Shown here: positions 25,030 to 28,358 of the stretch, piece after piece
Numbering within the stretch: the stretch's first letter is position 1
How the letters are laid out: each line of letters opens with the position of its first letter
NCBI GenBank assembly: GCA_022562455.1
Contig: JADFPG010000002.1
Location: forward strand, 1-47,743
Direction: 5' to 3'
DNA: 47,743 nt
DNA from: Fidelibacterota bacterium
Lineage (GTDB): Bacteria; Fidelibacterota; Marinisomatia; Marinisomatales; SCKK01
The notes under the pieces: model-generated
Seen by the model: only the letters and a program-made list of their open reading frames with translations
The model's database searches: none
What the model was told of the DNA's origin: nothing
Program-made: the position numbers and the translations under genes

Positions 25030-26079
25030 TTACAATATTGTAGAAAATCCAATACCAATGATAGTCCCACCGGCTCCGTTGTAACCCAAACCAAGATCTA
25101 CCGTAAGATTATCTGTCGCATAACCAAATCCGAAGGAGGTCCCCGCAAGATAAGTTTCCCAAAGGATATTAGTCCCCAGGTCAAATTTTCGGCTTGAGGT
25201 CCCCCAGCGAAGGGTGAAATTGTATGGAAGTGTAAATTCTCCTCCAAGGCGAACAATTCCATTTTCCATACCCTTCCACCATGTGCCTTCTACTGATAAA
25301 TCCAATGGCAGATGAACCAGGGATTTTAACACTCCAATATTTATAGTGGCAGGGAGAGGTTCTTTATACTCTGTATATGAATTGAACGTAATTCCCATAT
25401 TTTTTACACTCAAACCAAGTTTGGCTCCAAATGTGTCTATCTTTAAAATTGTTCCTGCCGTAATCAGTCCCAGTGTGGCACTTACATTATCCACCTGACT
25501 ATAAAACACGCCCATGGTAAGTCCCACATCAACGGAGGAAAAAAGCGCCTGTGCTATTGAAACACTGATCCACGTATCACCCGCGCCAAACTGCCCTGTT
25601 TTTACGTTATCTATGCTTCTTCTGTCAAAGGTGCCAAACCCTACATGCCTCAGTGAGACTGCCCCCATTCTGTTTCCCACAGGTAGACGCCATTCAACCA
25701 CTTCCGATTGGATGTCTGCGGGATATCGGATGACAGATAACAGTAATGTCTGTGGATTGCTCTGTAGCAGCGCCGGATTCATTGCGGTAATATCCATTCC
25801 TCGTCCATCCGCCACACCTGTTCCCGACATACTCAATGTTCGGATATGATAAGCAATCTCCAAAGAACCATAACTTCTCTGCGCGTACACAGCATTTGCT
25901 AAGAGAATGGCGAAGATTATCCCTTTTGGTCCTAACCCGCATTTCTCACCAACAAATCTACTCCGACGGCGGATGTGTTCACGACTACTATGTTTTCCTC
26001 GAAAAATGTACTCGACGTACTGTTTAGTACGCCTCCATGCATTTTTCTTTGTAAGCCTCGTATTCACAAACACTTTCAC
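25030..26079 (-). CDS. outer-membrane beta-barrel protein with displaced 5' end
   Basis: The conserved part begins at about 25920 with a signal-peptide-like stretch (GIIFAILLANAVYAQ) followed by strands ending FSTIL; the M-S-G-T-G-V-A-D...AMNPALL segment resembles PorV/PorQ-type barrels. No ATG, GTG or TTG lies in frame between the signal peptide and GTG 26067, 26073 or 26079, all inside a 192-bp inverted-repeat element. The first 50 residues of the open frame are therefore encoded by that element and very basic. Either the element displaced the native start, or a rare start codon such as ATA is used. I record the whole open frame; only 25030-25920 is likely original. Confidence 0.65.
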   Translation of the reverse strand: MKVFVNTRLTKKNAWRRTKQYVEYIFRGKHSSREHIRRRSRFVGEKCGLGPKGIIFAILLANAVYAQRSYGSLEIAYHIRTLSMSGTGVADGRGMDITAMNPALLQSNPQTLLLSVIRYPADIQSEVVEWRLPVGNRMGAVSLRHVGFGTFDRRSIDNVKTGQFGAGDTWISVSIAQALFSSVDVGLTMGVFYSQVDNVSATLGLITAGTILKIDTFGAKLGLSVKNMGITFNSYTEYKEPLPATINIGVLKSLVHLPLDLSVEGTWWKGMENGIVRLGGEFTLPYNFTLRWGTSSRKFDLGTNILWETYLAGTSFGFGYATDNLTVDLGLGYNGAGGTIIGIGFSTIL

Positions 26080-26124
26080 TCCCGAACAATCGGGACTACG
26101 ATTCTTGGTGAGAAATACGGGCTA
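25933..26124. mobile_element. 192-bp MITE-like element with 20-bp terminal inverted repeats
   Basis: Ends TAACCCGCATTTCTCACCAA (25933-25952) and TTGGTGAGAAATACGGGCTA (26105-26124) are inverted repeats with 18 of 20 bases matching. The interior folds further: TCCCGA...TCGGGA (26080-26095) and a long imperfect hairpin around GTACTGTTTAGTAC (about 25996-26045). It encodes no transposase. It fills the space between priA (stop at 26127) and the barrel gene. No clear target-site duplication was seen. Confidence 0.7.
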
Positions 26125-26126
26125 AT

Positions 26127-28358
26127 TTAAAGCAATGATATGGGATCCACATCCACATGTAAATTCACCCCTTTTCGTCTCTTCATTCGTGAAGAATTTA
26201 ACAGGTTTTTCTTTAGAAAATTATGAAGTGTTGTGCCGTTTCTGTCTTTTTCTTTGGGAGATTTAAAGATAATCTGAAAGCGATAGTTTCCACGTATCTT
26301 TTCAAATGGACAGGGTGCAGGTCCAAGTACTTGCAATGACTTAGGTTTTTTTTGCAGACTTTTTGTGAACTCATTGGCAACCTGCCTCACATTTCCTTTA
26401 TCTTTTCCGGAGAATTCCACTCTTGCCATCCAACTAAATGGAGCATAGTCAAGTTCCCGCCGTTCGCTGAGACAGATATTATAATATTTTTTCAGATCGA
26501 GGCGGGCAGCAGTTTTGATGACCGGGCTGTCAGAATTATTTGTCTGGATAACCACCTCCCCGGGTTTTTCTCCTCTCCCCGAACGACCAGCCACCTGATA
26601 AATAAGTTGAAAGGTTCGTTCTCCCGCTCTGAAATCCGGTAAAAAAAGACCGGTATCCGCATTGATAATACCCACCAGAGTCACATTATCAAAATCGAGA
26701 CCCTTGGCTATCATCTGTGTTCCTAATAACACATCATAAACTCCATCACCAAAATCTCTCAGGATATGTACGTAGGCTCCCTTTTTCCTGGTGGTATCCC
26801 AGTCCATTCTCACCAGACGCATTTGGGGGAAATATTCCACCAGGGCTTCTTCCACTTTTTGTGTCCCGATGCCACCCAACATTAACCGGGATCCCTGACA
26901 TTCACGACAGCTTATGGATGTGGGCTTTTCAAAATTACAGTAATGGCACCTGAGAATATTTCCTACTTTATGGTAGGTTAACGAGATCTGACAATTCCGG
27001 CACATTTCCACATACCCACAATCCCTGCACGACACAATGGGAGAAAAACCCCGCCGGTTCTGTAAAAGAATCACCTGTTCCCCCTTTTTTAGACGATCCT
27101 CAATTTTATCCTTCAACAGGCGAGAGAAAGGTGTTTTGTAATCTTCTGTTTTTTTCCGTTCTTCGATCATGTCCACCATATGAACCTGTGGATATTTTGC
27201 TCCTCCGAATCGTCTTTTCAATCTCAGATAATAGATCTTTCCAACCACCTGATTGTAGTAGGATTCCATACTCGGTGTTGCGCTGGAGAGGACGGTTAAA
27301 GCGCCACTCAATTTCCCCCGCATGAGGGCAACATTCCGGGCGTGGTATCGAGGGGCGGGACTTTCTTGTTTATAACTGCTTTCCTGCTCCTCATCGACAA
27401 TAATGAGACCTACATTCTTGAGAGGTGAAAAAATAGCGCTTCTTGCTCCCACCACTACCGAATAGGCACCGGAACAGATTTGCCGCCAAGTCCATGCCCG
27501 CTCTGCCGGTGACATTTGACTGTGCCAGATAGCTATCCTGTCACCGAATTCTGCTTGAAACCTCCCTGCAATCTGTGGCGTCAACGATATCTCCGGCAGC
27601 AGGATAATTGAAGCTCGTCCTTTTGATTCCGCCATTTTTGCAAGTTGTAAATATATTTCCGTCTTCCCGCTTCCCGTCACACCATGCAGGAGAAATGATT
27701 GGAACCTCTTTGCATCCATAGAATCTGACAACCGGGTAATGACTCCTTGCTGCTCTTTCGTGAACTTTACTTCCTTTGGTCGGGGGAAAAGTGAAAGGCT
27801 CGATAAATCAGGGATTCTTGGCACCTTTTGTATGGAAACATATCCTTTTTTTTCAAGAGCATTACAGATCGATGATACATTTGTTACAATCCGGTTCAAA
27901 TGAGCTACTGGAATTGTTCCGTCTCTTTCTAACAAAAACCGCATCACCTTGAATTGAACCGGCGCATTTTCGGAAAGATTATCCAAATCAGTTTGTGAGA
28001 TGGTTCCTGCATGAACCATTAACTGTTGCATGGGTTTGTAGGACAAATTCAGCTGTTTTGGAACCGCTGTTGACATCACCTGCCCGATTGGGGTGAGGTA
28101 GTAGTCGCTTACCCAGTTCAAGAGCTTCCAGAGGGTGGCATCGAATATAGGGGTTTCATCCACTACCGATTTTATGGATAGGATTTTCCCCTTGAATTTT
28201 GTTTTTTTAAAAAGGGAAACTACCACACCCTGGTCAGTTCGCTTCCCAAACGGCACCCGGACTCGTACCCCTACCTCAACGGTGTGTTCAAGTTTCTCGG
28301 GAATTCGGTAGACAAAGACCTTATAGCTGGAGATGGGAAATGAGATATCGGCAAACAT
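26127..28358 (-). CDS. priA: primosomal protein N' (PriA helicase)
   Basis: A 743-residue replication-restart helicase that loads the replisome at stalled forks. The N-terminal DNA-binding domain is followed by a superfamily 2 core with Walker A GVTGSGKTEIY, Walker B-like VDEEQESSYKQ, SSATPSMES and the C-terminal GRSGRGEKPG motif. Between the helicase lobes sits the zinc-binding insertion with eight cysteines in paired CxxC form (CRDCGYVEMCRNC and CHYC...CREC). Length is normal. A terminator separates it from the upstream toxin-antitoxin genes, and the MITE-like element begins two bases after its stop. Confidence 0.97.
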   Translation of the reverse strand: MFADISFPISSYKVFVYRIPEKLEHTVEVGVRVRVPFGKRTDQGVVVSLFKKTKFKGKILSIKSVVDETPIFDATLWKLLNWVSDYYLTPIGQVMSTAVPKQLNLSYKPMQQLMVHAGTISQTDLDNLSENAPVQFKVMRFLLERDGTIPVAHLNRIVTNVSSICNALEKKGYVSIQKVPRIPDLSSLSLFPRPKEVKFTKEQQGVITRLSDSMDAKRFQSFLLHGVTGSGKTEIYLQLAKMAESKGRASIILLPEISLTPQIAGRFQAEFGDRIAIWHSQMSPAERAWTWRQICSGAYSVVVGARSAIFSPLKNVGLIIVDEEQESSYKQESPAPRYHARNVALMRGKLSGALTVLSSATPSMESYYNQVVGKIYYLRLKRRFGGAKYPQVHMVDMIEERKKTEDYKTPFSRLLKDKIEDRLKKGEQVILLQNRRGFSPIVSCRDCGYVEMCRNCQISLTYHKVGNILRCHYCNFEKPTSISCRECQGSRLMLGGIGTQKVEEALVEYFPQMRLVRMDWDTTRKKGAYVHILRDFGDGVYDVLLGTQMIAKGLDFDNVTLVGIINADTGLFLPDFRAGERTFQLIYQVAGRSGRGEKPGEVVIQTNNSDSPVIKTAARLDLKKYYNICLSERRELDYAPFSWMARVEFSGKDKGNVRQVANEFTKSLQKKPKSLQVLGPAPCPFEKIRGNYRFQIIFKSPKEKDRNGTTLHNFLKKNLLNSSRMKRRKGVNLHVDVDPISLL

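Follow-up and report, generated by a model that had tools for sequence, protein, structure and literature searches.

The window, the whole stretch of 47,743 nt analysed here, carries on its minus strand priA and, downstream of it, a gene for a PorV/PorQ-like barrel protein, with a palindromic element lying between the two (Table 1). The barrel protein matches the NCBIfam profiles NF033711 (PorQ, E=4e-29) and NF033709 (PorV family, E=1e-13), both under the curated cut-offs. An earlier note, made from the sequence alone, had described the element as a MITE-like unit of 192 bp; the unit is real, with a length of 186 bp and borders set by a flanking 4-bp CTAA on either side. It had also placed the end of the element two bases after the priA stop and directly before the signal peptide of the barrel gene; the priA stop codon (26127-26129) lies one base beyond the CTAA.

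Table 1. Features of the priA-barrel junction in the window
Feature	Position	Strand	Detail
MITE, 186 bp	25936..26121	-	IS1380-type terminal inverted repeats CCCGTATTTCTCACCA ... TGGTGAGAAATGCGGG, minus-strand reading
Target site duplication CTAA (minus strand TTAG)	25932..25935		barrel-gene side; one copy at the empty site of G001
Target site duplication CTAA (minus strand TTAG)	26122..26125		priA side, one base from the priA stop
Barrel ORF, present form, 349 aa, PorV/PorQ-like	25030..26079	-	putative GTG start inside the element
Basic extension, 48 residues, element-encoded	25936..26079	-	MKVFVNTRLTKKNAWRRTKQYVEYIFRGKHSSREHIRRRSRFVGEKCG
Three in-frame GTG candidates	26065..26079	-	at 26079, 26073 and 26067
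Native ATG reading frame	26096..26158	-	ATG 26158 inside priA, reads MWMWIPYHCFKLARISHQES, stops at TAG 26098-26096
Native signal peptide region, downstream of the insertion	25879..25935	-	LGPKGIIFAILLANAVYAQ
priA, 743 aa	26127..28358	-	native barrel start lies within its last codons

The near match of the outer ~20 bases of the terminal inverted repeats and the lack of a transposase inside the element hold as first described, and the inverted arms (25933-25964 and 26093-26124) extend over 32 nt with 78% complementarity. The self-complementary interior was likewise borne out, the RNA of the element folding as one long hairpin (-79.4 kcal/mol, z = -8.3) and the DNA fold giving z = -5.5, with 0 shuffles folding equally well. 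The element scored E=1e-37 with a covariance model that was built including this copy. A structured RNA of a known family was rejected, the element region having no Rfam match, and no promoter was found inside the element on the strand of the barrel gene, two matches on that strand lying upstream, within priA. A second small palindrome, TCCCGA..TCGGGA, is inserted into the window copy (at about 26080-26096) and into some copies of a related genome of the same order (G034); 15 occurrences were counted in 168 kb of the window's genome, G000 (sampled at L211-L216 plus the window), against 0 for five control words, and by these counts would be a second, separate small repeat family.

The empty site whose search the earlier note proposed was found in a species of the same genus (G001, contig C16), where priA and the barrel gene meet without the element, at a single TTTAG, and where the barrel gene starts at an ATG within the last priA codons and reads MWMWIPYHCFNLGPKQIIFAILLANAVYAQ. 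The same overlap, with the ATG in the +1 frame of ...VDVDPxSLL, was found in at least six other relatives (G034, G019, G044, G004, G016 and G027/G048) and is thus ancestral. In none of the relatives did we find a basic N-terminal extension, so that a conserved basic domain, which the note had named as one finding that would overturn its reading, was rejected. Although the genomes compared are draft assemblies, the target duplication and the clean empty sites argue against an assembly chimera and for a real insertion.

That the insertion affected the 5' end of the barrel gene, as first proposed, is plain from the filled and empty sites: it adds 190 bp and cuts off the native ATG, the frame of which now runs for 20 codons to a TAG lying 16 nt before GTG 26079. 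The standard start codons that remain in frame with the barrel before its signal peptide all lie inside the element, as the earlier note had said of its ATG, GTG and TTG candidates, but they are three GTGs only, and the extension comprises 48 rather than 50 residues (15 K/R, 3 D/E, pI 11.5). The next in-frame standard start, at 25890, would remove most of the signal peptide. GGGAG, a candidate ribosome site, stands 5 nt ahead of GTG 26073, and no stop interrupts the frame from inside the element on through the entire barrel. Compared with G001, the barrel gene has a dN/dS of 0.14, a value that spans the whole divergence of the two species and not just the time since insertion, and the priA tail one of 0.05.

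Other copies at 78-81% identity, together with fragments, were found in the same genome, and the element therefore belongs to a repeat family. Besides the window copy, G000 has full-length copies on C155, C183 and C191, a half copy on C137 and a 45-bp deletion derivative on C79, giving four full copies in G000, with three in G001 and five in G034; in G001, a further copy (C65) is truncated and another (C9) is a deletion derivative. Most copies are flanked by 4-bp YTAR duplications. When 245 genomes of the phylum were searched with the covariance model, only one weak match (G022) was obtained beyond these three. One insertion site is common to both species of the genus, with the same flanks (G000:C183:4632-4807 and G001:C9:74533-74603); the G001 copy there has shrunk to 71 bp through internal deletion, and the shared insertion is probably older than the species split. 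Elsewhere in G000 (L118, C191:23384-23559) the element closes a small zinc-ribbon-like frame, giving it its last residues and stop (..MPLT-RISRKRSL).

Another genome (G230:C169) carries a complete IS1380 element of 1.7 kb that is flanked by CTAA and CTAG and shares its ends with the MITE, and its transposase matches the IS1380 models NF033539 (E=2e-113) and PF13701 (E=3e-154). An IS1380 transposase 54% identical to it adjoins the same repeat on a viral contig (L186), and an IS1380 element of G001 (C1) has diverged ends with TTAG beside both sides, so that the YTAR target is common to the IS1380 elements of G230 and G001 and to the MITE. No autonomous copy with the MITE's ends was found in the 201-contig draft of G000. 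IS701, for which a YTAR target rule is also known, was rejected as parent, the sole PF13546 match in G000 being without matching ends. Terminal inverted repeats, a target duplication with its empty site, dispersed copies free of a transposase and an autonomous element with the same ends were thus all found; the dispersed copies, the YTAR duplications, the sister-species empty site and the repeats matching an autonomous IS1380 support a MITE-like insertion.

The two full-length copies closest to that of the window, both in G001, are also fused to genes for exported proteins: one (C3) lies after lgt, ahead of a gene for a beta-propeller-like lipoprotein, and the other (C26) ahead of a gene for a protein with an AgmX-like tail. 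Both have the orientation and phase of the window copy and exit through ...GEKCG-L into a hydrophobic stretch, and G000 has the empty site for each. In all three fusions the target YTA is an in-phase Leu codon; the frame that enters from upstream gives L-[A/T]-RISHQES before it stops at element position 24. In a 448-kb sample, 1.3% of combinations of YTAR site and orientation were fusable, and 0.35% were both fusable and followed by a hydrophobic stretch; with three of nine copies in the genus fused, this gives P ~1.6e-4 or 3e-6, respectively, on the assumption of independent copies and with criteria chosen once the cases had been seen. The three fused copies form one subfamily, the other nine full-length copies were found unfused, and the excess needs no explanation beyond the survival of insertions that are tolerated. 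Even at its empty site the beta-propeller-like gene after lgt (L130, G000:C157:11550-12425, minus; G001:C3:28113-28988) has no in-frame ATG, GTG or TTG upstream of its signal peptide, which suggests a non-standard start codon in the genus.

We consider it probable that the MITE insertion cut off the native start of the barrel gene and that a GTG of the MITE now serves as its start. Besides what is observed (the insertion, its target duplication and empty site, the overlap, the frames and a geometry repeated in two further cases), this reading would have a non-autonomous, hairpin-forming MITE of IS1380 type enter a TTAG target one base past the priA stop, after the start codon of the barrel gene but ahead of its hydrophobic core, duplicating TTAG and separating the native ATG, inside priA, from the rest of the gene. 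A GTG inside the MITE would then start the gene and add ~48 basic residues before an unchanged hydrophobic core and cleavage region; signal peptidase would presumably remove this extension with the signal peptide, and the insertion would for that reason be tolerated. Ribosomes from the native start would end at the TAG of the element and could reinitiate 16 nt on, at the GTG. As a counterpoint, a hairpin of -79 kcal/mol could block translation from the GTG, and GTG starts are all that the window copy offers.

The earlier note had left it whether the gene was rewired or killed. Silencing, with translation blocked by the strong hairpin and by the lack of the native ATG and with the ORF left as a recent pseudogene that has yet to decay, would account for a native ATG cut off with its frame stopped, for the strength of the fold and for the GTG starts that alone remain, but it is unlikely: the ORF is wholly intact with purifying selection over the species divergence, the gene is widely kept (52/61 genomes searched, the weaker matches of which may be paralogues), and at two other signal-peptide genes a copy independently occupies this frame and orientation, something not required of dead genes. 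Rewiring is thus the better supported half of that alternative, a gene with a new start being more likely than a dead one since the downstream gene is intact, and the barrel protein is apparently translated from a GTG of the element.

Translation could instead begin at a non-standard codon just past the element (ATA 25920, ATC 25917 or ATT 25908), so that no basic extension is made. Such starts may exist in the genus, as the C3 gene natively lacks ATG, GTG and TTG before its signal peptide in both G000 and G001, but here we find one improbable: the stretch from the element to these codons shows no evident ribosome-binding site, GTGs with GGGAG upstream are available in the element, and the in-phase exit of all three copies would be a coincidence.

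Starting from the GTG of the MITE as the preferred reading, the subfamily might further act as a portable stop-restart cassette for in-phase YTA Leu codons near the starts of signal-peptide genes, with the native frame ended at a fixed stop, a restart a few bases on and an exit frame that keeps the signal peptide; this extension is doubtful, but if true it would mean that export genes can survive insertion of the element at their 5' ends. That the stop-restart segment and open frame were domesticated, being selected for keeping host genes translated, is highly improbable, because although 3/3 full-length copies of the subfamily are fused to signal peptides and frame-0 dN/dS among the three is 0.32-0.41 vs 0.6-1.3 in other frames, a contrast that is weak as it rests on few substitutions, the G034 copies carry stops in frame, in four others (G000/G001) a 1-nt indel precedes the right end, and survivorship gives the same pattern. 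Coding selection on the element ORF, suggestive among the fused copies only and inconsistent elsewhere, was accordingly rejected.

A pattern scan recovered the same layout in a Desulfobulbaceae MAG (G245) and a Verrucomicrobia MAG (G246), genomes in which the ~175-bp hairpin is present; the examples folded gave z = -13.5 and -12.1, respectively, and both have the terminal hairpin ACATACT..AGTATGT. The covariance model found dozens of matches in each genome (both strands counted, the element being palindromic), and many copies at these loci (L264-L303) have YTAR duplications. Across 14 sequences, 26/55 pairs were changed on both sides vs 12.0 expected in shuffles, which supports a hairpin maintained through selection or arm-to-arm correction. 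A scan of genome contigs with a 26-base tail gave no match. Start donation was rejected for the 40 Desulfobulbaceae and Verrucomicrobia copies, a few open frames of which enter genes (L272, L273), with the gene's own ATG kept. Together these matches outline a hairpin MITE family in at least three phyla, of which we found no description.

Correia elements are short, dispersed and palindromic, and some have ORFs. The same is true of ERIC and BOX (PMC10969869). Compared by description, elements of these types are mostly intergenic, unlike that of the window. MITEs of the IS1380 family are closer, sharing with it repeats that match the G230 IS1380, YTAR duplications and the lack of a transposase, but the interior of the window element is a conserved ~175-bp hairpin that may not derive from the transposase gene. 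The piggyBac superfamily, to which IS1380 serves as the prokaryotic outgroup, has a 4-bp TTAA-type target (PMC10813416); it is eukaryotic, and the family of the window element uses the broader YTAR.

No report of a MITE donating a start codon was found in the open-access literature. The nearest parallel is with the Rickettsia palindromic elements (RPE), ~150 bp long with an open frame, which lie in frame within protein genes as an extra peptide (PMC10969869); by description, RPE and the window element are both palindromic, have an open frame and are fused in frame. RPE modify gene products by translational fusion and keep both flanks of the host protein, whereas the window element cuts off the native start and would supply a new one before the signal peptide, the upstream frame stopping at the TAG and the downstream part alone being joined. 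In-frame fusion of such elements is already known from RPE; the donation of a start to a signal peptide would be a variant of it, one for which two closely related species provide three natural pairs of filled and empty sites where a mobile element replaces the start of an exported protein. With these pairs it can be tested how a gene stays functional after a transposon has entered its front part, and whether insertions can land safely in signal-peptide regions that are cleaved off.
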